From the NCBI GenBank assembly GCA_036399815.1, contig DASWMK010000182.1, positions 1 through 34,156 on the forward strand: 34,156 nucleotides of DNA, written 5' to 3'. Source of the stretch: Acidimicrobiales bacterium (lineage in GTDB: Bacteria > Actinomycetota > Acidimicrobiia > Acidimicrobiales > DASWMK01). A program made the position numbers and the translations under genes. Positions 13,982 through 33,166 of the stretch are shown piece by piece (within the stretch, counting starts at the first letter, position 1; every line of letters starts with the position of its first letter). The notes beneath the pieces are model-generated. The model was not told the origin of the DNA, did not search any database, and saw nothing but the letters and a program-made list of their open reading frames with translations.

Positions 13982-14818
13982 TCAGGCGGCGTCGGTGTCG
14001 ATGCGGTTGGCGGCCTCGTCGCGCACGGCGCTGACGGCCCGCTTGACCAGCCGGCGGGCGGCCTCGGCGGTCACGCCCAGCTCCTCGCCGACCTCCCGGT
14101 AGCTGCGCTTGCGGCCGTCGTGGAGGCCGAAGCGCTGCTCGACGGCGTAGCGGGCCCTCGCGTCGAGGACGCCGAGCAGGTCGGTCACCATCTGCTCCTC
14201 GGCCCTGGCCAGCACCTCGGCCTCGGGGCCGGGGGTGGCGTCGGGGAGGATGTCGACCAGCTCGTTGCTGTCGTCGTCGCCGATCGTCCGGTCGAGCGAC
14301 GTCGGCGTGGTGAGGCGGTGGAGCAGCGCGTGCTCGTCGTCGAGCTCGTCGCCGTCGCCGGCCACCTGGCGGAGGGCGGCGCGGAGGCTGGCCGAGCGGT
14401 CACCGGGCAGGCGGACGAGGCTCGCCTTCTGGTCGAGGGCCCGGCCGATGGCCTGGCGGATCCAGAAGGTGGCGTAGGTGGAGAACTTGAACCCCTTGCG
14501 CCAGTCGAACTTGTCGACGGCGTGCTCGAGGCCGAGGTTGCCCTCCTGGATGAGGTCGAGCAGCTCCATGCCGGGGGGCAGCGGGTAGCGGCGGGCGACG
14601 CTCACGACGAGGCGGAGGTTCGCCCTGATGAACCGGTCCTTGGCGCGGGCCGCGGCGCGCACCTTGCGGCGCAGCGCCGGGTCGTGCTCGCCCGCCTCGA
14701 TGCGGGCGGCCGCGAGGCGGCCCTGCTCGATGATCTGCGACAGCTCCCGCTCCTCGGCGGCGGTGAGGAGGGGGACGAGGCCGATTTCGTTGAGGTACTG
14801 GCCGACGGAATCGCTCAT
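13982..14818 (-). CDS. Sigma-70 family RNA polymerase sigma factor, group 2-like
   Basis: This 278-residue sigma factor has region 1.2 (residues 3-35, DSVGQYLNEIGLVPLLTAAE), region 2 (about 60-130, including ANLRLVVSVARRYP, LDLIQEGNLGLEHAVDKFDW and the -10-recognising KGFKFSTYATFWIRQAI), region 3 (about 130-205) and region 4 (about 213-270) with helix-turn-helix SYREVGEELGVTAEAARRLV. No long acidic region 1.1 is present, so it is a non-essential primary-like (SigB/HrdA type) rather than the housekeeping factor. AGGTG stands just before the ATG. Its 95-bp upstream gap is shared with the divergent NuoF-like gene and holds a 7-bp inverted repeat that could be an operator. Confidence 0.93.
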   Translation of the reverse strand: MSDSVGQYLNEIGLVPLLTAAEERELSQIIEQGRLAAARIEAGEHDPALRRKVRAAARAKDRFIRANLRLVVSVARRYPLPPGMELLDLIQEGNLGLEHAVDKFDWRKGFKFSTYATFWIRQAIGRALDQKASLVRLPGDRSASLRAALRQVAGDGDELDDEHALLHRLTTPTSLDRTIGDDDSNELVDILPDATPGPEAEVLARAEEQMVTDLLGVLDARARYAVEQRFGLHDGRKRSYREVGEELGVTAEAARRLVKRAVSAVRDEAANRIDTDAA

Positions 14819-21915: not shown

Positions 21916-22602
21916 TCAATCGCCCATGCCGTCGAGCCAGGCGAGCGCGAGGTCGACGACGTGGAGGGGGACGGCGTGCCCGCCGGGGAACTCCTCGTAG
22001 CGCACGTCCAGGCCGGACTCCCGCAGCAGGCGGGCGACCCGGCGGCCGCAGCGGTCGATCGGCAGCACCCGGTCGGCCACGCCGTGGGAGACGAACACCC
22101 GGGGCGACCCGCGCACGGTGGCCGGCGCGGCGAAGCCCGGCGAGAAGGCGACGAGGGACGGGAACAGGTCGCCGTTCGTCAGGCCGAGGGAGAGGGCGTA
22201 GGAGGCGCCGTCGGAGAACCCGCCGATGGCGACCCGGTCGGCGGCCACGGCGTACCGCTCGAACGTGTCGGCCAGGCCGGCGTCGATGCGGGCCGCGTCG
22301 GGGCCGAAGCCGCCGACGAGCAGGTCCCAGGTGGCGGCGCCCGAGTCGGGCGCGAGGACGATCAGGCCGGCGTCGTCCAGCCGGGCGCCGAGGAGGTCGA
22401 CGGCCTGGCGGGCGCGGCCGCCCGCGCCGTGGAGGAGCACGATGAGCCCGCGAGGGTCGGGCGGGACGTAGCGCAGCCCGACGGGGAGGCCGCCGACCTC
22501 GAGCGTGTGCAGCCCGCTGGGTCCGCCGCTCGCCGGCGCGCCGCCACCGGGCCGGGCGCCGAGCCGGCCGTCGCTCGGGTCGCCGCCCCGGTTGCCGCGC
22601 AT
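21916..22602 (-). CDS. Alpha/beta hydrolase, phospholipase/carboxylesterase-like
   Basis: This 228-residue hydrolase has the oxyanion strand LIVLLHGAGGRA, the nucleophile elbow GGFSDGASYAL (Ser in GFSDG), the acid Asp in SHGVADRVLPID and the catalytic His in FPGGHAVPLHVV. The layout and length match the phospholipase/carboxylesterase or dienelactone-hydrolase-like group. The substrate is unknown, and no signal peptide is clear. I use ATG 22602; GTG 22635 directly after the upstream stop would add 11 Arg/Gly-rich residues and cannot be excluded. The first 35 residues are Gly/Pro-rich linker. Confidence 0.85.
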   Translation of the reverse strand: MRGNRGGDPSDGRLGARPGGGAPASGGPSGLHTLEVGGLPVGLRYVPPDPRGLIVLLHGAGGRARQAVDLLGARLDDAGLIVLAPDSGAATWDLLVGGFGPDAARIDAGLADTFERYAVAADRVAIGGFSDGASYALSLGLTNGDLFPSLVAFSPGFAAPATVRGSPRVFVSHGVADRVLPIDRCGRRVARLLRESGLDVRYEEFPGGHAVPLHVVDLALAWLDGMGD

Positions 22603-22635
22603 CGGGCCCGCTGTACCCCGCCTGCGGCGCTCCAC

Positions 22636-23052
22636 TCAATCCGGGATGGCGAGGTACGCCTCGGTCAACCAGCCGAGGATCTCCTCGTCGAGGTCGTCCG
22701 GGTCGCGGACGTTGACGACGTGGTACCAGCGCCCGCCGTGGGGGATCGGCTTGCGGGTGATCCGGGGGTGGCGCACGACGCGGGGGAGCGAGAACGAGAG
22801 GGCGACCCAGCGCTGCATCGGCCGGAGCTGGGCGAAGGTGCCGGACCGCTTGAGGAAGATGCCGACCGACACGGGCTCGACGTGCACCGGCCCGACGCCG
22901 GCCAGGTGGGCCATGACCGCGTCGAACACCGGCCGCTCGTGCGGCGGCCCCGTCGAGAAGTACTCGTCGAGCGACATGGCCGGCGCGCACTCGTGGGTCT
23001 GCCCGCGGCGCGCGAACCGCCGCCCGCACGCCGGGCACTCCCACACCGCCAT
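22636..23052 (-). CDS. DUF5655-type protein with N-terminal zinc-binding motif
   Basis: This 138-residue protein begins with a small zinc-ribbon-like motif, Cys6, Cys9, His20 and Cys22 ([10 protein letters not shown]...THEC), followed from about residue 27 by the DUF5655 region ([45 protein letters not shown]). The function of the family is not known. It ends directly before the esterase frame, so the two are probably one operon. TAGAC lies about 10 nt before the ATG with no ribosome site. Confidence 0.75.
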
Positions 23053-23089
23053 GCCGACCGTCTACCAGGGCGGGGCGACGGCCCGCCGG

Positions 23090-23278
23090 TCAGGTGGTGG
23101 CGTTGCCGCTGGAGTCGGTGTTCTCGCCGGTGCGGTCGTCGTACGGGGGCACCAGCCCGCCCGGCTCCTCCTCGCCGCCCGGCTGCGGGTTCGGCCCCCG
23201 CGAGGCCCGCCCGCCCGGCTGCACGTCCCGGTTCCCGCCCTCGGGGTTCCGGCCGGGGTCGTCCTTGGTGTCCGACAT
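23090..23278 (-). CDS. Small Gly/Pro/Asp-rich disordered hypothetical protein
   Basis: This 62-residue protein is made almost only of Gly, Pro, Asn, Asp, Glu and Ser, with no hydrophobic core, membrane helix or Cys, so it is expected to be disordered. I accept it as a gene because AGAGGAGGAG, containing a perfect AGGAGG (23288-23283), stands just before its ATG, one of the best ribosome sites in the window. No homologue or role is recognised. Confidence 0.7.
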   Translation of the reverse strand: MSDTKDDPGRNPEGGNRDVQPGGRASRGPNPQPGGEEEPGGLVPPYDDRTGENTDSSGNATT

Positions 23279-23387
23279 CGCTCCTCCTCTGGGTAGGGCG
23301 ATGCCGGTGGCGTACCCACGGGGGCGCCGCGGCAGGCGTCGACCTGTCGTGCCGACGACCCGCCACGGCGCCCACGCGAGCGGACGG

Positions 23388-23810
23388 TCAGCAGGCGTAG
23401 GTGCTGCCGCGCGTGCCGTCCCGGTAGTCGAGCAGGCTGTCGCTGACCCACCCGGACACGCCCGTGGTCGTGTCGCGGAGGTAGGTCCACGTGCTCCACC
23501 CGTTCACCGTGTCGCCCACGGCCCAGCAGTGGTAGTCCACGTTGTGGGTCAGCTGGCCCTGGCCGAGCGCCGTGCACGAGGTGTGCGGGCCCGTCCTGAT
23601 GTAGACGCCGCTGGCGTCGAAGAACTGCCCCGCGCGGGGGTCGAGGTTCGAGTGCGCATGGGTGCAGCTGCGGGTGCCGGCACCGTCGGCGGTCGCCGCC
23701 GCCTTGGCGCCCGTCGGCCGCGGCTGGCCGGCGTCGGCCGGCACGACGAGCACACCGAGCAGCATGGAGGCGGCGGCGAGCGCGCCGAGGACGAGGTTGC
23801 GGAGTCGCAT
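23388..23810 (-). CDS. Small secreted SH3-like (bacterial SH3-type) protein
   Basis: This 140-residue protein has a Sec signal peptide (MRLRNLVLGALAAASMLLGV, then VVPADAG with likely cleavage after ADA near residue 27). The mature part resembles a bacterial SH3-type domain: GVYIRTGPHTSC at about 73-84, DYHCWAVGDTVNGWSTWTYL and GVSGWVSDSLLDYR. Four Cys residues could form disulfides outside the cell. Such domains bind peptidoglycan or act as host- or toxin-like secreted modules; no enzyme domain is present. I chose ATG 23810, preceded by AAGGGGGG; an upstream frame start (23864) would precede the signal peptide. Two inverted repeats lie upstream. Confidence 0.85.
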   Translation of the reverse strand: MRLRNLVLGALAAASMLLGVLVVPADAGQPRPTGAKAAATADGAGTRSCTHAHSNLDPRAGQFFDASGVYIRTGPHTSCTALGQGQLTHNVDYHCWAVGDTVNGWSTWTYLRDTTTGVSGWVSDSLLDYRDGTRGSTYAC

Positions 23811-23849
23811 GAATTCCCCCCTTGACGAGGCGGGGCGAGAGGAAACGTC

Positions 23850-23873
23850 CTGGCGACCGCGCACGATCGCCAG
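23850..23873. promoter_or_regulatory. CTGGCGA-N10-TCGCCAG inverted repeat upstream of the SH3 gene
   Basis: A perfect 7-bp inverted repeat with 10-nt spacer lies 40 nt upstream of the secreted SH3 protein start. The half-site spacing of 17 bp fits an operator, or the sequence may fold in the 5' leader. Confidence 0.35.
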
Positions 23874-23941
23874 ACGAGAGGTGGTGCCCGCCGTTCTCCG
23901 CCCGCTCCGCCGCTGGTGTCCGGGCCGACGATTCGCTCGGT

Positions 23942-23963
23942 ACGGGTTTCAGCGTAAACCCGT
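23942..23963. other. Perfect 8-bp stem-loop ACGGGTTT-cagcgt-AAACCCGT
   Basis: An 8-bp perfect stem with a 6-nt loop stands in the divergent gap, about 130 nt from the SH3 gene. It has no T-tract on either side and no upstream gene that would need a terminator, so an operator or recombination-type site is as likely as a terminator. GATTCG occurs on both sides (near 23931 and 23969). Confidence 0.45.
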
Positions 23964-24262
23964 GGGGCGATTCGTCAAGCCGTCAGTGTGAGCGCCGACG
24001 GACGGGTGAGCGTCCGCGGCGACACCGGCGGCACCAGCCGGCGCGCGGCGACCCGCGCCCGCGTTGCCACTCCGTCGGACGTGTCGAGAACTCGGAGCAG
24101 TTTCTCCCGAGCATCTCGACGCCGTAGGGGGAGCTGCGTCCTCGACAGAAAGAGCACGACGATCTAGGGTGCGCGATCCGCGAAGAGCGGCCCGGCCTGC
24201 GGCTGCAATCTGGACAGCTCTTCGATGCACCCAACGTGGTGCCATCCCAGGAGAGGGCGCGC

Positions 24263-25051
24263 ATGTCGAACGAGGCCACCGACGCCGGACGTGCCGTGCG
24301 GGAGCTGCACGAGAAGCTCGCCGACGCCATCGAGGCGCGGTCCAATGACCCTCGCATCCGGGCAGTGCGACGTGAGTTCCTCTCCGGCATCGACGTTCCG
24401 GAGGGCGCCCGCGTGCTCGAGATCGGCTCCGGGACCGGTGCCGTGACCCGTGAGCTCGCGCAGTTGGCGAACGTCGCGCACGCCACGGGGGTCGACACCT
24501 CCAAGGTCTTCGTCGCACGCGCCCGTGAGCTCGCCCAGGGCGTCGAGAACGTCTCGTTCGAGGAGGGCGACGGCCGCCGCACGCCGTTCGACGACGAATC
24601 GTTCGACGTCGTCGTCCTGCACACCGTCATCTGTCACGCTCTCGTCCCTGAACAGCTGATCGCGGAGGCCTTCCGCGTCCTGCGATCGGGTGGCCTCGTG
24701 GCGATCCTCGATGCCGACGACGCGACGGTCGCCATCGGGGACTCCGACCCGCTCCAGGCGTGTATCGACGTCTTGCCGGTCCAGAACCTCGGTCTGGTGC
24801 GTCGAGTGCCTGCGATGCTCGAGGAATACGGGTTCGAGGCGTTGCCCATGCGGTGCCACGGGTACGTCGAGGCTCCGGAGGGTGGCCTCATGCTCGCCTG
24901 GATCGACCGAGGAGCGGAAGCGCTCGTCAAGCTCGACCGAATCGGCAAGGAGCTCGCCGACGCCCTGCGAGCAGAAGCCCAGCGCCGGAGTGCGTCCAAG
25001 TCGTGGTTCGGGCACATTTCGTTCTTCAGCGCGGTCGGTCGCAAGCCCTGA
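24263..25051 (+). CDS. SAM-dependent methyltransferase (class I)
   Basis: This 262-residue Rossmann methyltransferase has motif I VLEIGSGTG at 51-59, an acidic strand-2 end (TGVDTSK near 75), DGRRTPFDDESFDVVVLHTV (motif II/IV area near 110-125) and RVLRSGGLVAILDADD after it. The N-terminal 45 residues are helical and would cap the substrate site. AGGAGAGGG sits before ATG 24263. It is the first gene of a four-gene block of lower G+C with the small peptide, a sulfotransferase and an MBL protein, suggesting O- or N-methylation of a shared small molecule or peptide. The substrate cannot be read from the sequence. Confidence 0.88.
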   Translation: MSNEATDAGRAVRELHEKLADAIEARSNDPRIRAVRREFLSGIDVPEGARVLEIGSGTGAVTRELAQLANVAHATGVDTSKVFVARARELAQGVENVSFEEGDGRRTPFDDESFDVVVLHTVICHALVPEQLIAEAFRVLRSGGLVAILDADDATVAIGDSDPLQACIDVLPVQNLGLVRRVPAMLEEYGFEALPMRCHGYVEAPEGGLMLAWIDRGAEALVKLDRIGKELADALRAEAQRRSASKSWFGHISFFSAVGRKP

Positions 25052-25100
25052 CCGCCGTCCATCGAGGTTCACCCGTCATCGGAGATGGATCTCCCAAACG

Positions 25101-25106
25101 AGGAGG
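25101..25106 (+). promoter_or_regulatory. AGGAGG ribosome-binding site of the small peptide gene
   Basis: A perfect AGGAGG ends 5 nt before GTG 25112. It decides the start: the in-frame ATG at 25085 lies upstream of it and has no comparable site, so translation most likely begins at the GTG. Confidence 0.7.
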
Positions 25107-25111
25107 ATGCG

Positions 25112-25264
25112 GTGCCTGACGGCTTCGACGCCGAGATCGAGATCGCGAGCGCGAGGGACATCGTCTCGAACGCAGCCGTGACCAGCAGCACCATGAAGTT
25201 CCAGGACCTCTACGCGGCGCTGGACGTCGAAGACCTCGCGGAGACCTATGTCTTCCGGCACTAG
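25112..25264 (+). CDS. 50-residue acidic peptide, candidate precursor or small partner of the tailoring cassette
   Basis: A short gene lies between the methyltransferase and the sulfotransferase (60 nt after one, 37 nt before the other). From GTG 25112 it encodes 50 residues; an ATG at 25085 would give 59. It is acidic, has no Cys, no signal peptide and no membrane segment. The C-terminal third reads FQDLYAALDVED (30-41) then LAETYVFRH (42-50). Tyr34 and Tyr46 are both close to acidic residues, the context preferred by tyrosylprotein sulfotransferases. The perfect ribosome site and its place in a collinear block support a real gene. I do not recognise the family. It may be a peptide substrate of the neighbours or a small accessory protein; no radical SAM, RRE or cyclase is visible. 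Confidence 0.7.
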   Translation: MPDGFDAEIEIASARDIVSNAAVTSSTMKFQDLYAALDVEDLAETYVFRH

Positions 25265-25301
25265 GCCGGTGTAGGCAGCTTCCCGATCGAGGCGCGCTCC
25301 G

Positions 25302-26174
25302 GTGGAGGGTCCCGTCGAGGCCGACTCCGTGAGCAACGGTCCGGTGTTCGTCGTCGGCATCGTCCGTTCCGGCACGTCGCTCATGAGCATGATGCTGTCG
25401 GCGCATCCCGCGTTCGCGGTCGCGCCGGACCTGCACTACATCCACCATTGGGTTCGGCGCCACCGCCACCTCGAGCTCTCGCGGCCGGCAGACTTCGAAG
25501 AGTTCTGGGCGGCATTCAGCGGAAACGAGCGCTTCGGCTACCTCGGGGTCGACGCCGACGACGTGCGTCGGTACATCGAGGCCACGCAGCGCTTCAGCTT
25601 TCGCGGCGTCTACCTCTCGATCCTCGAGACCTTCGCCGCCAACCTGCAGAAGCGTCGCTGGGGCGAGAAGACGCCGTTCACCGCGAACCATCTCGACACG
25701 CTCTTCGGCTGGTTCCCCGACGCCCGGGTGATCTACATGCTGCGCGATCCGCGGGCGGTCGTCAGCTCGCTGCGGAAGATCCCCTGGCTCGCCGACGTGG
25801 GCGTGCCGACCCACGCACGGTCGTGGGCCACGGGCGTGGGTCGGGCGCTCGCCGATGACGGCGATCCACGCGTCCTGCGGGTGCGGTACGAGCGTCTCGT
25901 GCATCGACCGACCGACGAGCTCGCCCGGATCTGCCGGTTCCTCGACGAGGAGTACTCGCCCGAGATGCTGACCGGTCGACCTGCGCTCGGAACGTGGGCA
26001 CTCAGAGATCGGGAAGGGTGGGAGCGGACGCACCTGAGCGCCGCCCTGGGCCCGGTCCACGATGCCTCCGTCGAGCGATGGAGGCGAGAGCTGGCGCCGG
26101 GTGAGGTCGAGCTGATCGAGGAGATCTGCGGGCCCGTCATGCAGCAAGCCGGGTACTCGCCCTCGGAGACCTAG
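25302..26174 (+). CDS. PAPS-dependent sulfotransferase
   Basis: This 290-residue protein carries both PAPS-binding elements: the 5'-phosphosulfate loop GIVRSGTSLMSMM (19-31) and the 3'-phosphate motif with Arg148 and Ser155 in VIYMLRDPRAVVSSLRK (143-159). RWGEKTP (119-124) between them is typical of the Sulfotransfer_3-like group, which includes tyrosylprotein- and natural-product sulfotransferases. It moves a sulfuryl group from PAPS to a hydroxyl or amine. The start is GTG 25302; GTG 25329, nine codons on and after a GAGG, is also possible. No signal peptide is seen, so it acts in the cytoplasm. Its neighbour on the 5' side is the small tyrosine-bearing peptide. Confidence 0.92.
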   Translation: MEGPVEADSVSNGPVFVVGIVRSGTSLMSMMLSAHPAFAVAPDLHYIHHWVRRHRHLELSRPADFEEFWAAFSGNERFGYLGVDADDVRRYIEATQRFSFRGVYLSILETFAANLQKRRWGEKTPFTANHLDTLFGWFPDARVIYMLRDPRAVVSSLRKIPWLADVGVPTHARSWATGVGRALADDGDPRVLRVRYERLVHRPTDELARICRFLDEEYSPEMLTGRPALGTWALRDREGWERTHLSAALGPVHDASVERWRRELAPGEVELIEEICGPVMQQAGYSPSET

Positions 26175-26206
26175 GTGTCCGACGCGAGACCTGGTCGGGA
26201 GACGCC

Positions 26207-27538
26207 GTGCGGGTGACCGTCCTCGGCCACGCGAGCCTGCTCTTCGAGACGGCGAACGAGCGGATACTGCTGGACCCGGTCCTGCGCACCACGGCGTTGC
26301 TCGGGAGCGTCGTCCATCAGTATCCACGGGCGCTCGCCCTCGAACGCCTGCCGACTCCGACCCTGCTCGTGGTCACGCATGCTCACTACGACCACTTCGA
26401 CCCGGAGACGCTCGCGGAGCTGCCGAAGGGCATCCCGGTGGTGGTGCCGCCTGATCCGAGGCTGGCGGAGCAACTCCGACGCCTCGGGTTCGCCGAGCTC
26501 CGAGTCCTGGAGCCGTGGGGCCACACCGAGCATGGCTCGGTTCGGTTGACGGCGACACCGTCGGAGGCGCACGTGTCGGAGTTCGGTCTCCTGGTCGAGA
26601 CCGATGATGCCCGGCTCTGGCACATGTCCGACGCGGAGCCACCTGTCGGTACGTCATCGAGGATCCTGTCCGAGCTCGGCGAGGTGGACGTCGTCTCGGT
26701 GAAGTACCAGCCCCCGGACCCACTCCTGAACTTCCTGCACAACCTCGGCTCGAGCTTCGATCGCAGGTCGACGGCTCGCTGGCTGGAAGAAGCCTGCGCC
26801 TGCCGCCCGAAGCTCGCCTTTCCGTATGCGTCCGGGCTCTGCCTGACACAAGAGCACGCGTGGCTGAATCGGTACGCCTACCCGTTCTCTCCGGAACAGG
26901 TCGCCGCGGTGCTCGACGAGCGACTCACGGGCATCGGCCGATCCGCCGTGGTCAGGCCCGGCGACGTGATCTCGATGGGGTCCGGGCCGGTCGAGCTCGA
27001 GCGGCAAGCGAGCGACGTCGTGCGGCAGTGTGGCGAGGAGACACCGATCGACTGGGAGCCGATCGAGATCGACCGTCTGGGCACGCTCTCTCGGCCCGCC
27101 GACAAGACGGCCGTCACCGAGCAACTGACGGAGATCGTCGCCGGCGGAGAGTTCTCCGCATGGCTACGGGCGAACCCGAAGCTGCTCAAGCCGTTTCACG
27201 AATGGCGCGTGCTCTGTCAGTTCGTGGTCCATCTGGACGAGACCGAACGCCTGTACTTCCAGGCGGACTTCACGGGCGGCACCCCGGAAGGCCGCCTCGG
27301 AAGGAGTGGCGCGGCGAACTACTTCCTGCACGTCGGCGGCGACGCGGCGCGGCGTCTGCTCGGTGGGCACGCCTCGTCGGCCGAGGTGATGTATCAAGGC
27401 CAGGTCCGGGTCTTCGAGCGCATCGTCTCGGTCCGAGACGGCAAGGTCGACGCGCCGGACGTGGAGCACGTGTACGGGACCTTCCCGGATCCCTTCCTGT
27501 GCTTCGCGACCGCCCGGGCCAGGCTGGCGAAGCCGTAG
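26207..27538 (+). CDS. MBL-fold metallohydrolase with long unassigned C-terminal region
   Basis: This 443-residue protein starts with a metallo-beta-lactamase fold of the UlaG/CMAH-like kind: VTVLGHASLLFET (3-15), the metal motif THAHYDHFD with His58, His60, Asp62 and His63, and WHMSDAEPP holding a bridging Asp. The domain ends near 250-260. The next 190 residues do not match any family I know; VLCQFVVHLDETERLYFQADF and GRSGAANYFLHVGGDAARRLLGG weakly suggest an SCP2-like sterol-carrier fold. MBL proteins hydrolyse esters or lactones or perform oxidations, so the reaction is open. GGGAG precedes GTG 26207 and the gene is 32 nt after the sulfotransferase. It ends 30 nt from the tRNA-Ala. Confidence 0.87.
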   Translation: MRVTVLGHASLLFETANERILLDPVLRTTALLGSVVHQYPRALALERLPTPTLLVVTHAHYDHFDPETLAELPKGIPVVVPPDPRLAEQLRRLGFAELRVLEPWGHTEHGSVRLTATPSEAHVSEFGLLVETDDARLWHMSDAEPPVGTSSRILSELGEVDVVSVKYQPPDPLLNFLHNLGSSFDRRSTARWLEEACACRPKLAFPYASGLCLTQEHAWLNRYAYPFSPEQVAAVLDERLTGIGRSAVVRPGDVISMGSGPVELERQASDVVRQCGEETPIDWEPIEIDRLGTLSRPADKTAVTEQLTEIVAGGEFSAWLRANPKLLKPFHEWRVLCQFVVHLDETERLYFQADFTGGTPEGRLGRSGAANYFLHVGGDAARRLLGGHASSAEVMYQGQVRVFERIVSVRDGKVDAPDVEHVYGTFPDPFLCFATARARLAKP

Positions 27539-27543
27539 GAGGG

Positions 27544-27558
27544 CGGTCCGGAGGACCG
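27544..27558. terminator. Terminator-like hairpin between the MBL gene and tRNA-Ala
   Basis: CGGTCC (27544-27549) pairs with GGACCG (27553-27558) across a 3-nt loop. It lies between the MBL stop (27538) and the 3' end of the opposing tRNA (27568), so it could stop transcripts from either side. No T-tract follows, which is common in high-G+C actinobacteria. Confidence 0.45.
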
Positions 27559-27567
27559 ACACCCGGG

Positions 27568-27640
27568 TGGAGCTGAGCGGACTCGAACCGCCGGCCTCTT
27601 GCATGCCATGCAAGCGCTCTTCCAACTGAGCTACAGCCCC
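27568..27640 (-). tRNA. tRNA-Ala(GGC)
   Basis: Read on the minus strand, the 73-nt gene has a 7-bp acceptor stem (GGGGCTG with CAGCTCC, one G-T pair), the D-arm TAGCTCAGTTGGAAGAGC, the anticodon stem CTTGC/GCAAG around loop ATGGCAT with anticodon GGC (reads GCC and GCU Ala codons), and the T-arm GGCGGTTCGAGTCCGCT. The discriminator base is A. The genome continues CCC, so the 3' CCA is not encoded. The lower-G+C cassette 24263-27538 ends at its 3' side. Confidence 0.95.
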
Positions 27641-27653
27641 GAACGAGCCACCC

Positions 27654-27659
27654 AGCGTA
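27654..27659 (-). promoter_or_regulatory. TACGCT -10 box for tRNA-Ala
   Basis: TACGCT on the minus strand ends 13 nt before the tRNA 5' end, giving a leader of about 7 nt, normal for a tRNA gene. The -35 position is not close to TTGACA. It shares a 70-bp divergent gap with leuS. Confidence 0.4.
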
Positions 27660-27698
27660 CCAGCCGGAATCGGCCCCGGAGACCTCCGGAGGCGTCGG

Positions 27699-27704
27699 TA
27701 CGAT
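27699..27704 (+). promoter_or_regulatory. TACGAT -10-like box, leaderless start of leuS
   Basis: TACGAT is followed by 6 nt and ATG 27711, with no purine-rich ribosome site between. The spacing puts the transcript start on the ATG. No T-box leader fits in the 70 bp available. Confidence 0.5.
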
Positions 27705-27710
27705 GCCGGG

Positions 27711-30164
27711 ATGGCCGACGGCTACGACCCGCAGGCGGTCGAGGAGAAGTGGCAGCGCCGGTGGCGTGACGAGGGCACCTACGAGGTCGAGAACGACGAC
27801 ACGCGCCCCCACTTCTACGCGCTCTGCATGTACCCGTACCCGAGCGGGCCGGCCCACATGGGCCACGTGCGGAACTACACCTACGGCGACCTGATCGTCC
27901 GGTACCGCACGATGCACGGCTACGCGGTGCTGTCCCCGATGGGGTTCGACAGCTTCGGCCTCCCGGCCGAGAACGCGGCGATCAAGACCGGCGTCCACCC
28001 CCGCCCGTTCACCGACGACAACATGGGCAAGCTGCGCCGCAGCATCGAGCGCATCGGCGCCGTCTACGACTGGCGGCGGGAGGTCCACAGCCACGACCCC
28101 CGGTACATGCGCTGGAACCAGTGGATCTTCCGGCGGCTGTACGAGGCCGGCCTGGCCTACCGGGCGAACGCGCCGGTGAACTGGTGCCCCGGCTGCCAGA
28201 CGGTGCTGGCCAACGAGCAGGTGCTGCCGGACGGGACGTGCGAGCGGTCGGGGGACACGGTCGAGCGCCGCGAGCTGGAGCAGTGGTTCTTCCGCATCAC
28301 CGCCTACGCCGACCAGCTGCTCGACGACCTGGAGGACCTGGTCTGGCCCGAGCGGGTGAAGACCATGCAGCGCAACTGGATCGGGCGGTCCGAGGGCGTC
28401 GAGTTCGACCTGCCCGTGCAGGGGCGCGAGGACCTGGCCATCCGCGTCTTCACCACCCGCCCGGACACGAGCTTCGGGATGACCTACGCCGTCCTGGCCC
28501 CCGAGCACCCGCTGGTCCCCGAGCTGACGACGGACGAGCAGCGGGGCGAGGTCGACGCCTTCGTCGGGCAGGTGCGCCTGGAGTCCGAGCTCGAGCGGCT
28601 GTCGGGCGAGGGCCCCCTGGACAAGCGGGGCGTGTTCACCGGGTCCTACGCCGTCAACCCGTTCACCGGCGACGCCATCCCCGTCTACATCGCCGACTAC
28701 GTGCTGATGACCTACGGCTCGGGGGCGATCATGGCCGTCCCCGGCCAGGACCAGCGGGACTGGGACTTCGCCGAGGCCTACGGGCTGCCCATCGTGCGGA
28801 CGGTCGAGCCGCCCGAGGACTGGGACGGCGAGGCCTACACGGGCGACGGGCCGGCCATCAACAGCCAGTGGCTGGACGGGATGCACGTCGCTGCGGCCAA
28901 GGAGGCCGCCATCCGCTGGATCGAGGACAAGGGCATCGGCCACCGCACGGTCAACTACCGGCTGCGGGACTGGCTGCTGTCCCGGCAGCGCTACTGGGGC
29001 TGCCCGATCCCGGTCGTCTACTGCGACGAGCACGGCGTCCAGCTGGTGCCCGAGGACGAGCTGCCCGTCCAGCTGCCCGACGACGTGGAGTTCATGCCGA
29101 CGGGCGAGTCGCCGCTGCGGTTCCACGAGGGCTTCCTGCGCACCACCTGCCCGGTGTGCGGCGGGCCGGCCACCCGCGAGACCGACACCATGGACACCTT
29201 CGTCGACTCGTCCTGGTACTTCCTGCGCTACTGCGACCCGTGGGACGACGAGCACCCGTTCGACCCGCACGCGCTGCGGGCCTGGATGCCGGTCGACCAG
29301 TACATCGGCGGCATCGAGCACGCCATCCTCCACCTGATGTACGCCCGCTTCTGGGTGAAGGCCCTGGCCGACCTGGGCGTCGCGCCGAAGGAGCTGCGGG
29401 AGCCGTTCTCCCGGCTGTTCACCCAGGGGATGATCCGGCTCGGCGGCACGAAGATGTCGAAGTCCAAGGGCAACCTGCGGGCGCCCGAGGAGTTCTTCGA
29501 GGACGTCGGCGCCGACGCCCTGCGCCTGCACGTGCTGTTCATGGCCCCGCCGCCCGACGACGTGGACTGGACCGAGGCCGGCGTGGAGGGCGCGTCGCGC
29601 TTCCTGCACCGGCTCTGGCGGCTGGGCACCGGCGCCGCGCCCGGCCGGGTGGAGGACCGGGAGCCGACGGCCGAGGACGACGAGGTCGAGCGCTCGACCC
29701 ACCGCCTGATCGCGAGGATCACCGACGAGTTCGAGCGGTGGTCGTACAACACGGCCGTCGCCGGCTTCATGGCGTTCACCAACGAGCTGTACCGGTACGT
29801 GCAGTCGCCGGCCGGGGCGCGCACGGCCACCCTGGACGCGGCCGTCGACACCGTGCTGCTGCTGCTGGCGCCCATGGCCCCGCACGTCACCGCCGAGCTG
29901 TGGGAGCGGCGCCACCCCGGCGAGCACGTCCACGACCAGCGCTGGCCCGTGGCCGACGAGACCAAGCTGGCCTGGTCGACGGTGACGATGGTCGTCCAGG
30001 TGAACGGCAAGGTGCGGGACCGCATCGAGGTCGACGCGGCGATCGACGCCGAGGAGGCCGAGCGGCTGGCCCTCGCCTCGAAGCGGGTGCGGGACCTGCT
30101 CGACGGCGACGAGCCCCGCAAGGTCATCGCCCGGCCGCCGCGGCTCGTCAACGTCGTCGCCTGA
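27711..30164 (+). CDS. leuS: Leucyl-tRNA synthetase
   Basis: This 817-residue class Ia synthetase charges tRNA-Leu. The HIGH motif appears as HMGH at 49-52 ([17 protein letters not shown]) and KMSKS at 581-585. [14 protein letters not shown] and the [15 protein letters not shown] block precede the CP1 editing domain (about 220-400; [20 protein letters not shown] and [17 protein letters not shown]), which removes mischarged amino acids. A zinc-ribbon-like CPVCGG lies near 479. The C-terminal anticodon-binding helices and [11 protein letters not shown] complete a full-length bacterial LeuRS. A GNAT gene starts 13 nt after the stop and is probably co-transcribed. Confidence 0.98.
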
Positions 30165-30177
30165 GCCGGCCGGCGCC

Positions 30178-30675
30178 GTGATCCTGCGTCCGGCCGGGGC
30201 CGGCGACGTCGACTTCCTGCACGCCATGCTCTACGAGGCCGCCCACTGGTCGCCCGACCGGCCCAGGATGGACCGGGCCGAGGCGCGGACGCACCCTCGC
30301 ATGGCCCACTACGTCGACGGCTTCCCCCGGCCCGGCGACGCGGGCGTGGTCGCCGAAGAGGACGGGCGGCCGATCGGCGCGGCCTGGTACCGGCGCTTCT
30401 CCGCCGACGCGCCGGCCGACGGCTTCGTCGCCGAGGACATCCCGGAGGTGGCGATCGCCGTCGTCGCCGAGGCGCGCGGCCGGGGGGTGGGCACCGCCCT
30501 CCTGACCGCCCTGCTCGACCGGGCCGCGGCCGAGGGCCTCGGCGCGGTGAGCCTCAGCGTGGAGGACGCCAACCCGGCCCGCCGGCTCTACGAGCACGTC
30601 GGCTTCGAGCGGGTCGGCGGCACCCCGGGGTCGAGCACGATGGTCCACCGGCTGGGGGGTCGCCCCGGCGGGTAA
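30178..30675 (+). CDS. GNAT-family N-acetyltransferase
   Basis: This 165-residue protein has the GNAT order: an N-terminal ILRPAGAGDVDFL strand-helix (2-14), a beta-rich middle (GVVAEEDGRPIGAAWYRRF, 56-74), motif A with the acetyl-CoA pyrophosphate loop at AEARGRGVGTALL (97-109) and motif B NPARRLYEHVGFERVG (132-147). It transfers an acetyl group from acetyl-CoA to an amine; the acceptor is unknown. The GTG at 30178 follows leuS closely and the next gene begins 10 nt after the stop, so leuS, this gene and the AMP ligase may share a transcript. Confidence 0.9.
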   Translation: MILRPAGAGDVDFLHAMLYEAAHWSPDRPRMDRAEARTHPRMAHYVDGFPRPGDAGVVAEEDGRPIGAAWYRRFSADAPADGFVAEDIPEVAIAVVAEARGRGVGTALLTALLDRAAAEGLGAVSLSVEDANPARRLYEHVGFERVGGTPGSSTMVHRLGGRPGG

Positions 30676-30685
30676 CCCCCGGGCC

Positions 30686-32362
30686 ATGCCCTGGGTCACA
30701 CCGGCCGTGACGACGCTCGCCGCCCGCATCGAGGCCGCCGCCACCGGCACCCACGCGCTGACGTTCGTGACCGGTGGCGACCCCGACCCCGTGCCCTGGG
30801 CCCGTCTGCACGAGGACGCCATGGCCATGGCGGCCGGCCTCCAGGCCAGGGGCGTCGGCCCCGCCGACCACGTCGCCATCCTCGGCCCCACCAGCCGCCC
30901 GCTCGTCACCGCCATCCAGGCGACCTGGCTGGTCGGCGCGACCGCCGTCGTCCTGCCCCTGCCCATGCGGCTCGGCTCCCTCGAGGAGTTCGTGTCCGCC
31001 ACCGTGCAGCGGGTGGCCAGCGCCGACGCCGCCGTCGTGCTCGTCGACCCCGACCTCGCCCCGTTCCTCGAGGGCCGCCCGTCGCCGGCGCCGGTCGTCC
31101 TCCTCACCGACCTCACGCCCGGCCCCGGCCGCCCCGGCCCGGCGGCGTTCCGGCGCCCGGCCGACGACCCCGGGGCGCTCGCCATCCTCCAGTTCACGAG
31201 CGGGTCGACGGCCGACCCGAAGGGCGTGATGCTCCCGCACCGCACGGTGTGCGCCAACCTCGACGCCATCGTGGCGGCCACGTCGTTCGACCGGGACGAC
31301 GACGTGCTCGTCTCCTGGCTGCCCCTCTACCACGACATGGGCCTCGTCGGGCTGCTGGCGACGGCCATGACCACCGGCTGCGACCTCGTCCTCGGCGCCC
31401 CGCAGGACTTCCTCGCAGCCCCGGGCCGGTGGATGGAGTGGATCTCGGCCTACGGTGGCACCGCCACCGCCGGCCCGAACTTCTCCTACGTGCTCGCCAC
31501 CCGGGCGCTGCGCCGCCAGAGCGGGCTCGACCTGTCCCGGCTGCGCATCGCGCTGAACGGCGCCGAGCCCGTCGACCCGTCCACCGTCGAGGCCTTCTGC
31601 GAGGCGGGCGCGCCGCACGGCATGCGGCCGGGGTCGGCCTTCCCCGCCTTCGGGATGGCCGAGGTCGCCATCGCCGGCACCTTCCCCGAGCCCATGTCCG
31701 GCCTGCGCGTCGACCCCGTCGACCGGCGGGTGCTCGAGTCCGAGTCCTACGCCGCGCCGGCCGCCGCCGGCCAGCCCGGCACCCGGGCGCTGCCCCTCCT
31801 CGGGCGGGCCGTTCCCGGCCTCGAGATCCGGGTGGTCGACCCGGCCGACGGCACCGTCCGCCGCGAGCGCGAGGTCGGCGAGCTCGAGATCAGGGGCACG
31901 TCGGTGACCCCCGGCTACTACCGGCGGCCGGACGCGACGGCCGAGAGCTTCCGGGGCGACTGGCTGCGCACCGGCGACCTCGCCTACCTCGTCGACGGTG
32001 AGCTCGTCGTGTGCGGGCGGATCAAGGACGTGATCATCGTCGGCGGGCGCAACGTGTTCCCCGAGGACGTCGAGCGGGCCGTCGCCGGCATCGACGGCGT
32101 GCGGGCCGGCAACGTGATCGCCTTCGGCATCGACAGCCGACAGGGCAAGCAGTCCCTCGTCGTGGTGGCCGAGTCCAAGGCCGAGGACCACACGCTCGTG
32201 CGCAAGCACGTCGCCGAGCGGGTGCGGGAGGCGGTCGGCCTGCCGGCGAAGGACATCGTCCTCGTCGCCCCCGGCACCCTGCCGAAGACGTCGTCGGGCA
32301 AGCTCCAGCGCTCGTTATGCCGCCAGCGCTTCCTCGGCGGCGACCTCCAGCCCGTCGGCTGA
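30686..32362 (+). CDS. Fatty-acyl-AMP ligase/acyl-CoA synthetase-like AMP-binding enzyme
   Basis: This 558-residue ANL-superfamily enzyme activates a carboxylate with ATP to an acyl adenylate. The P-loop-like motif is ILQFTSGSTADPKGVMLPH (about 168-186). WLPLYHDMGLVG (about 211-222), PNFSYVLATRAL and the sequence around FPAFGMAEVAIAG are characteristic of FadD32-like fatty-acyl-AMP ligases. The hinge and C-terminal domain contain LRTGDLAYLVDGELVVCGR-like (about 427) and KTSSGKLQRS with the catalytic Lys (about 533-542). Some family members pass acyl-AMP to a carrier protein; none is next door, so CoA or a distant ACP remains possible. It converges on the HAD gene with a 3-nt gap. Confidence 0.9.
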   Translation: MPWVTPAVTTLAARIEAAATGTHALTFVTGGDPDPVPWARLHEDAMAMAAGLQARGVGPADHVAILGPTSRPLVTAIQATWLVGATAVVLPLPMRLGSLEEFVSATVQRVASADAAVVLVDPDLAPFLEGRPSPAPVVLLTDLTPGPGRPGPAAFRRPADDPGALAILQFTSGSTADPKGVMLPHRTVCANLDAIVAATSFDRDDDVLVSWLPLYHDMGLVGLLATAMTTGCDLVLGAPQDFLAAPGRWMEWISAYGGTATAGPNFSYVLATRALRRQSGLDLSRLRIALNGAEPVDPSTVEAFCEAGAPHGMRPGSAFPAFGMAEVAIAGTFPEPMSGLRVDPVDRRVLESESYAAPAAAGQPGTRALPLLGRAVPGLEIRVVDPADGTVRREREVGELEIRGTSVTPGYYRRPDATAESFRGDWLRTGDLAYLVDGELVVCGRIKDVIIVGGRNVFPEDVERAVAGIDGVRAGNVIAFGIDSRQGKQSLVVVAESKAEDHTLVRKHVAERVREAVGLPAKDIVLVAPGTLPKTSSGKLQRSLCRQRFLGGDLQPVG

Positions 32363-32365
32363 CGG

Positions 32366-33166
32366 TCAGCCCGCCCGCTCGGCGATCAGCCGCTCCACCA
32401 CCAGGGCGACGCCGTCCTCGTCGTTGCTCGCCGTCACCTCGTCGGCCGCGGCGAGCACGTGGCGGTGGGCGTTGGCGACGGCGACGCCCCGGCCGGCCCA
32501 GCCGAGCATGGACAGGTCGTTCGGCATGTCCCCGAAGGCGACGGCGTCGTCCGCGCTCAGCCCGTGCTCGGCGGCCAGCTCCTCCAGGGCGACGGCCTTG
32601 CTGACCCCGGCGGCGGAGATCTCGAGCAGCCCCGACGAGCTGGCGTGGGTGAGCGTGGCCAGGTCGCCGACCACCTCCCGCGCCGCCCGCAGCAGCTCGT
32701 CGGCCCCCATCGACTCGTGGCGGACGAGCAGCTTCGCCATGGGCGCGGCGACGAGCTCGTCGGCGTGGGCGACCAGCACGTCGTCGGGCACCGAGGCCCT
32801 CGTCCGGTAACCAGGCTCGCGCCCGAACGCCATCCCCCGCTCGACGGCGAAGGCGAGGTCGGGCAGGGCGTCGCGCAGCCGCCGCACGACGTCGGCGGCC
32901 GTCGCCGGGTCGATCGGGTTCTCGCGGACGATCTCGCCCCGCTCCAGGTCCCACACGACCGCGCCGTTGGCGCAGATGGCGAGGCCCGTGCGGCCGAGCT
33001 CCTCGGCGACCGGCGCCATCCAGCGGGGCGGCCGGCCGGTGACGACGACGACGAGGGCGCCGGCGTCCTCCGCCGCGGCCAGCGCCGCCCTCGTCCGGTC
33101 CGACACCGTGCCGTCGGAGCGCAGGAGGGTCCCGTCGAGGTCCGACGCCACCAGCCACGACGCCAC
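32366..33166 (-). CDS. Cof-type HAD-IIB phosphatase
   Basis: This 266-residue HAD hydrolase shows motif I ASDLDGTLL (Asp9 nucleophile, Asp11 acid/base), motif II VVVTGRPP (38-45), motif III Lys in GVSKAVALEELA and motif IV AFGDMPNDLSML near 212-222. The C2B cap lies between motifs II and III (about 80-190). Relatives dephosphorylate sugar phosphates, flavin mononucleotide precursors or similar; the substrate is undetermined. The GTG at 33166 is 1 nt after the upstream oxidoreductase stop, implying translational coupling. Confidence 0.93.
   Translation of the reverse strand: MASWLVASDLDGTLLRSDGTVSDRTRAALAAAEDAGALVVVVTGRPPRWMAPVAEELGRTGLAICANGAVVWDLERGEIVRENPIDPATAADVVRRLRDALPDLAFAVERGMAFGREPGYRTRASVPDDVLVAHADELVAAPMAKLLVRHESMGADELLRAAREVVGDLATLTHASSSGLLEISAAGVSKAVALEELAAEHGLSADDAVAFGDMPNDLSMLGWAGRGVAVANAHRHVLAAADEVTASNDEDGVALVVERLIAERAG

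Follow-up and report, generated by a model that had tools for sequence, protein, structure and literature searches.

A short acidic open reading frame lies upstream of a sulfotransferase gene in an Acidimicrobiales bacterium, which raises the question of whether the frame is a gene and what the neighbouring enzymes do to its product. The window, which is the whole stretch of 34,156 nucleotides analysed here, corresponds to one whole contig of its genome. Four genes follow one another on the + strand in the order methyltransferase, peptide, sulfotransferase and MBL-fold enzyme, with the peptide gene in second place (Table 1). The initial annotation proposed that the sulfotransferase modifies the peptide on tyrosine, in the manner of the RaxX/RaxST pair, and that the methyltransferase may modify it as well. 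Taken together, the results indicate that the small gene is real and that its operon is probably imported. The product is best read as the probable precursor of a ribosomally made and post-translationally modified peptide (RiPP). Sulfation would be one likely modification, and the tyrosine site is hypothetical.

Table 1. Coordinates of the operon and of the features at its right edge.
Feature	Position	Strand	Basis or remark
Class I SAM-dependent methyltransferase	24263..25051	+	Pfam Methyltransf_11, E 8.5e-25
Ribosome-binding site AGGAGG, peptide gene	25101..25106	+	Sequence
Peptide gene, probable RiPP precursor	25112..25264	+	50 aa from GTG 25112; 59 aa from ATG 25085
Sulfotransferase, 290 aa	25302..26174	+	Pfam Sulfotransfer_3, E 1.5e-31
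MBL-fold enzyme, 443 aa	26207..27538	+	Pfam Lactamase_B_2, E 1.8e-14; profile matches FrsH, CmlA
tRNA-Ala (GGC)	27566..27640	-	ARAGORN and Rfam; 3' end faces the operon
Leucyl-tRNA synthetase	27711-30164		Beyond tRNA-Ala

The intergenic gaps are 60 nt from the methyltransferase to the GTG of the peptide gene, 37 nt from the peptide gene to the sulfotransferase and 32 nt from the sulfotransferase to the MBL-fold enzyme. The methyltransferase has AGGAGAGG upstream of ATG 24263, and a longer frame is possible from GTG 24236; the sulfotransferase may start at GTG 25329, which has GAGG ahead of it. A consensus scan of 23800-27720 found neither a promoter nor a terminator, and repeats within the operon resembled those expected by chance in coding sequence. 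The third-position GC content of the four operon genes is 0.86-0.88, whereas flanking genes at 21916-23864 and 27711-33166 have 0.94-1.00. This lower value and the presence of a tRNA-Ala at the right edge suggest an imported block, and the four-gene operon has probably been acquired from elsewhere. The tRNA-Ala is a possible edge of the imported island. No attachment-site repeat was found; a 10-base match at 23013 to the region of the tRNA-Ala was taken as chance. ARAGORN also reported a tRNA-Ala at 14608-14700, which lies antisense in a sigma-factor-like frame (13982-14818), has no Rfam support and is probably false. Divergent from the operon, the - strand at 23388-23864 encodes a small protein that matches SH3_3 weakly (E 0.0085) and seems, by reading, to carry a secretion signal.

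The features that had drawn attention to the peptide gene are all present. Direct reading and computation agree on the AGGAGG, its 5-nt spacing from GTG 25112 and the open frame to the TAG at 25262-25264, and the peptide is acidic and free of Cys and carries Tyr34 and Tyr46 (Tyr 43 and 55 when counted from ATG 25085), as had been claimed. The 50-aa form has a computed pI of 4.07 and a charge of about -7, and the 59-aa form beginning at ATG 25085 a pI of 4.05 and a charge of about -11. Because GGAG abuts ATG 25085 directly and leaves no spacer, GTG 25112 is the better start and the 50-aa form is preferred. The acidic surroundings of the tyrosines are borne out in part: two acidic residues lie within five positions of each Tyr, but a basic one does too, and the acidic setting is therefore modest. 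AlphaFold2 predicts a helix over residues 23-45 of the lone peptide at middling confidence (pLDDT 66.7).

Could the frame be a chance opening in the 250-base gap rather than a gene? Its length is unremarkable, as a + strand open reading frame of at least 59 aa arises in 10% of dinucleotide shuffles of that gap, and length by itself is weak evidence for a gene; the lack of any homologue found also fits a chance frame. Codon statistics argue strongly the other way. A codon model was built from the three genes next to the peptide gene, and on this model the peptide reaches 0.70 bits per codon. None of 1350 similarly long windows in a wrong frame scores as high (maximum 0.63), and in a leave-one-out comparison the value comes near the top of the right-frame windows (n=270; median 0.36, maximum 0.72). 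The GC content by codon position counted from the GTG (0.61/0.37/0.92) resembles that of the neighbouring genes, and AGGAGG stands at its 5-nt spacing. A chance frame is thus highly improbable, and we regard the gene as very probably genuine.

Searches for relatives of the peptide returned nothing credible. Among 147 other genomes, those listed all belonging to the same order, 13 match at E<=1 (best 0.06), and among 375 other genomes of the phylum, 19 match at E<=0.5 (best 0.0028). Plasmid matches have E values of 7 or worse, viral contigs gave none, and neither Pfam nor NCBIfam contains a matching family. The weak matches mostly fall inside long frames of other proteins, such as one in G708 (E 0.0045, 885-aa frame). 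Two candidates were rejected as chance: the match in G146 (E 0.3) is antisense to a chloride-channel-like frame, and that in G434 (E 0.0028) is antisense to a 371-aa frame.

The main and best clue to the role of the operon is the MBL-fold enzyme, which the initial annotation had left out of its reading. Among 397 genomes of the order (own genome included), only G264 besides the window matches it over the full length (37% identity), and a set of 375 genomes from the class, again with the own one among them, adds full-length relatives in G779 and G803. Among 72,556 plasmid records, two relatives span 80% or more of the query; no relative was found in viral contigs. Three of these five full-length relatives lie in RiPP settings. 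On plasmid p057_G of Nostoc sp. C057, the gene for the relative (27% identical) has a YcaO/leader-binding protein and a SagB-type dehydrogenase on one side and NHLP exporters on the other, and precursors of the Nif11 and NHLP types are encoded around it. The relative on plasmid pPg_03 of Pseudanabaena galeata (24% identical) is accompanied by LanM, Nif11 precursors and NHLP exporters. In G264, the genes for the MBL-fold enzyme, a peptide of 101-117 aa and a B12 radical SAM enzyme form a row, and the locus also has a divergent DMATS-type prenyltransferase (Trp_DMAT, E 4.6e-13). The best NCBIfam model for the radical SAM enzyme is a RiPP maturation radical SAM C-methyltransferase, at 89.4 bits and under its cut-off of 281.85. 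From these genes the G264 locus looks like a RiPP cluster and would be a candidate for a prenylated RiPP. The two remaining relatives, in G779 and G803, are 61% identical to each other and have no visible RiPP setting, as no RiPP gene was seen nearby.

Two further observations concern these loci. The G264 peptide between the MBL gene and the B12 radical SAM gene (G264:C204; L030:4858-12000, L020) is Gly-rich and ends in SGGTIMCPW; it does not align with the window peptide. The Pseudanabaena plasmid encodes a second, N-terminally extended MBL-fold protein (L108:4100-5557) next to Nif11 precursors and two 2OG-Fe(II) oxygenases. This second protein is without the C-terminal region and was dropped from the four-row family alignment.

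The chemistry of the MBL-fold enzyme can be approached from its metal ligands. The enzyme retains HxHxDH and Asp142. The canonical His residues at positions 121 and 207 are present in 14 of 14 generic MBLs (rows picked from 32 loci) versus none of four aligned members of the window enzyme's family, which instead carries Glu/Asp120 and Glu125 in the first of these regions, along with D142. A scan of genome contigs with patterns from the MBL pair alignment matched the general HxHxDH motif in 32 generic MBLs and was of no use for the operon. By profile, the closest solved sequences are FrsH (3.3e-12) and CmlA (6.7e-10), followed by hydrolases such as NAPE-PLD (3.1e-9) and SaxA (1.5e-8). PMC7794379 presents both FrsH and CmlA as diiron enzymes that carry out beta-hydroxylation. 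In the comparison of folds, CmlA (Z 22.6, rmsd 3.1, 227 aligned residues) is tied with ordinary MBL hydrolases (Z 22-23.5). Because of this tie, we infer rather than assert a hydroxylase role, and the MBL-fold enzyme is possibly a hydroxylase.

The likeness to CmlA and FrsH covers the MBL domain, for which they are the closest solved sequences, and may extend to the ligand set, where the family lacks the canonical His and has acidic residues. In contrast, the substrates of CmlA and FrsH are amino acids held on NRPS carrier domains, and both enzymes possess a long N-terminal region, whereas the window enzyme, whose iron binding is putative, has an extra C-terminal region (residues about 290-443) that is unmatched in them. 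The AlphaFold2 model is good only in the N-terminal domain, with a mean pLDDT of 60.7 and values under 50 for residues 260-314 and 384-443. The Pseudanabaena relative gives a weak Alkyl_sulf_C match under the cut-off (E 0.0077), which presumably hints at an SCP2-like fold.

The sulfotransferase keeps both PAPS-binding motifs, RSGTS at residue 22 and RDPRAVVSS at residue 148. Its best solved relative is CurM (3.1e-10), a polyketide sulfotransferase, and the next are protein-tyrosine sulfotransferases 2 and 1, human ones among them (1e-9 to 8e-9). These matches do not distinguish a peptide substrate from a small molecule. The host can probably supply the sulfate donor, as its genome has an APS kinase match of 222.6 bits within a frame of 658 aa. 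At E<=1e-30, the sole other sulfotransferase in 298 genomes is that of G169 (36%), which adjoins a flippase-like gene and no peptide. Among the related sulfotransferases on plasmids, some are NoeE and others have genes that overlap one for a glycosyltransferase; a Nonomuraea match lies in a record without annotation at that place.

The peptide gene, very probably a genuine one, shares its operon with genes for a sulfotransferase and a methyltransferase, and relatives of the MBL-fold enzyme occur in RiPP clusters. The best interpretation is therefore a peptide that is modified by the neighbouring enzymes. The genetic part of that proposal stands, while the peptide as substrate is drawn from the settings of the MBL relatives. 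On balance, we regard the 50-59 residue peptide as probably the precursor of a RiPP. Its acidic N-terminal part would serve as the leader and its C-terminal part, around MKFQDLYAALDVEDLAETYVFRH, as the core, on which the methyltransferase, the sulfotransferase and the MBL-fold enzyme of the operon would act. The MBL-fold enzyme may oxidise the core, possibly as a diiron-type hydroxylase. The sulfotransferase would sulfate either the hydroxyl of a Tyr or one newly introduced by the MBL-fold enzyme, and the methyltransferase would add a methyl to a further group; the order and sites of these steps are conjectural. Sulfation of the peptide by the neighbouring enzyme is plausible. Leader removal and export would presumably depend on proteins encoded elsewhere; none of the four genes is a visible export or protease gene, as previously noted. 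Against the RiPP reading, neither Pfam nor NCBIfam identified a class-defining RiPP enzyme (YcaO, LanM/LanB, radical SAM, P450 or ATP-grasp) among the four genes. A bolder and rather unlikely version would make the operon a minimal, unnamed kind of RiPP, in which a methyltransferase, a sulfotransferase and a diiron-type MBL hydroxylase share one precursor, the MBL-fold enzyme hydroxylates the core and the sulfotransferase caps the hydroxyl; its MBL family would then be a RiPP tailoring enzyme shared by cyanobacteria and the host's order.

A RaxX-like scheme, in line with the original suggestion, would have the sulfotransferase place sulfate on Tyr34, Tyr46 or both and the product exported as a signal; several observations agree with it. 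Like raxX, a short precursor gene stands beside a sulfotransferase gene, PAPS would come from host core genes (the APS kinase being in place), and the window sulfotransferase has both PAPS-binding motifs. The acidic peptide with two tyrosines adjoins an enzyme that has protein-tyrosine sulfotransferases 1 and 2 among its solved relatives, and its length is similar to that of the 60-residue RaxX described in part of PMC6637879. The same paper, however, describes for raxX-raxSTAB a double-glycine leader and the peptidase/exporter RaxB. In contrast, there is no Gly-Gly anywhere in the 59-aa sequence and hence no such leader, there is no RaxA/RaxB-type exporter-peptidase among the four genes, and Peptidase_C39 has no match in the own genome (96.71% complete); the locus is therefore not a RaxX system. 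The additional methyltransferase and MBL-fold enzyme have no counterpart in raxX-raxSTAB. The modest acidic setting of each tyrosine, the failure to find peptide homologues and the ranking of CurM ahead of any tyrosylprotein sulfotransferase also weigh against tyrosine sulfation of a signal peptide, which is hypothetical for the window peptide and improbable overall.

A different possibility is that the substrate of the three enzymes is a lipid or another small molecule, with the peptide serving the operon as a small protein of accessory or regulatory function. The rank of CurM and the association of related plasmid sulfotransferases with NoeE or a glycosyltransferase gene would fit such a role, as would the two MBL relatives outside any visible RiPP setting and the helix predicted in the lone peptide. 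But no scaffold-making enzyme is present among the four genes, and the majority of the MBL relatives, three of five, do lie in RiPP settings; this explanation is rather unlikely.

The RiPP reading has precedents in part. Sulfotransferases in RiPP clusters are already in print. According to extracts of PMC13417212, in which the sulfotransferase is a tailoring enzyme on a ribosomal peptide, 17 biarylitide clusters in a set of 277 clusters encode a sulfotransferase, namely five of the six clusters of one biarylitide clade and 12 others; the same source cites a paper on sulfonated lanthipeptides. Sulfotransferases are also reported in lasso-peptide clusters (in passages of PMC8498205 and PMC4289311) and in clusters from pan-genomic mining (in a passage of PMC7794033). 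Unlike the sulfonated lanthipeptide and biarylitide clusters, the window operon has no lanthipeptide synthetase or P450 among its four genes. The Nif11/NHLP clusters of cyanobacteria share with it a full-length MBL-fold relative but differ in their Nif11/NHLP leaders, YcaO/SagB or LanM enzymes and NHLP exporters, none of which occurs in the window operon. A literature search combining RiPP, sulfotransferase and metallo-beta-lactamase or 'MBL fold' found no paper, and in the one paper returned when Nif11 was included, metallo-beta-lactamase was absent from the main text. Sulfotransferases acting on ribosomal peptides are described as relatively understudied, with few characterised members, in part of PMC13417212. 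If the RiPP reading is true, the operon is a very small cluster for testing peptide sulfation, and it draws attention to a family of MBL-fold enzymes whose metal ligands are altered and which is found repeatedly in RiPP clusters.

A PqqD-like leader-recognition domain was also sought in the four genes, with no match in Pfam, which diverged domains can escape. In the own genome, one PqqD match exceeds the cut-off, on another contig and with a different gene set. This match, a PqqD-like protein of 88 aa near the start of contig C3 (G000:C3; L119:223-2126), is followed by a protein that, by reading, resembles a B12-type radical SAM enzyme, and the pair may belong to a second RiPP cluster, distinct from the operon.
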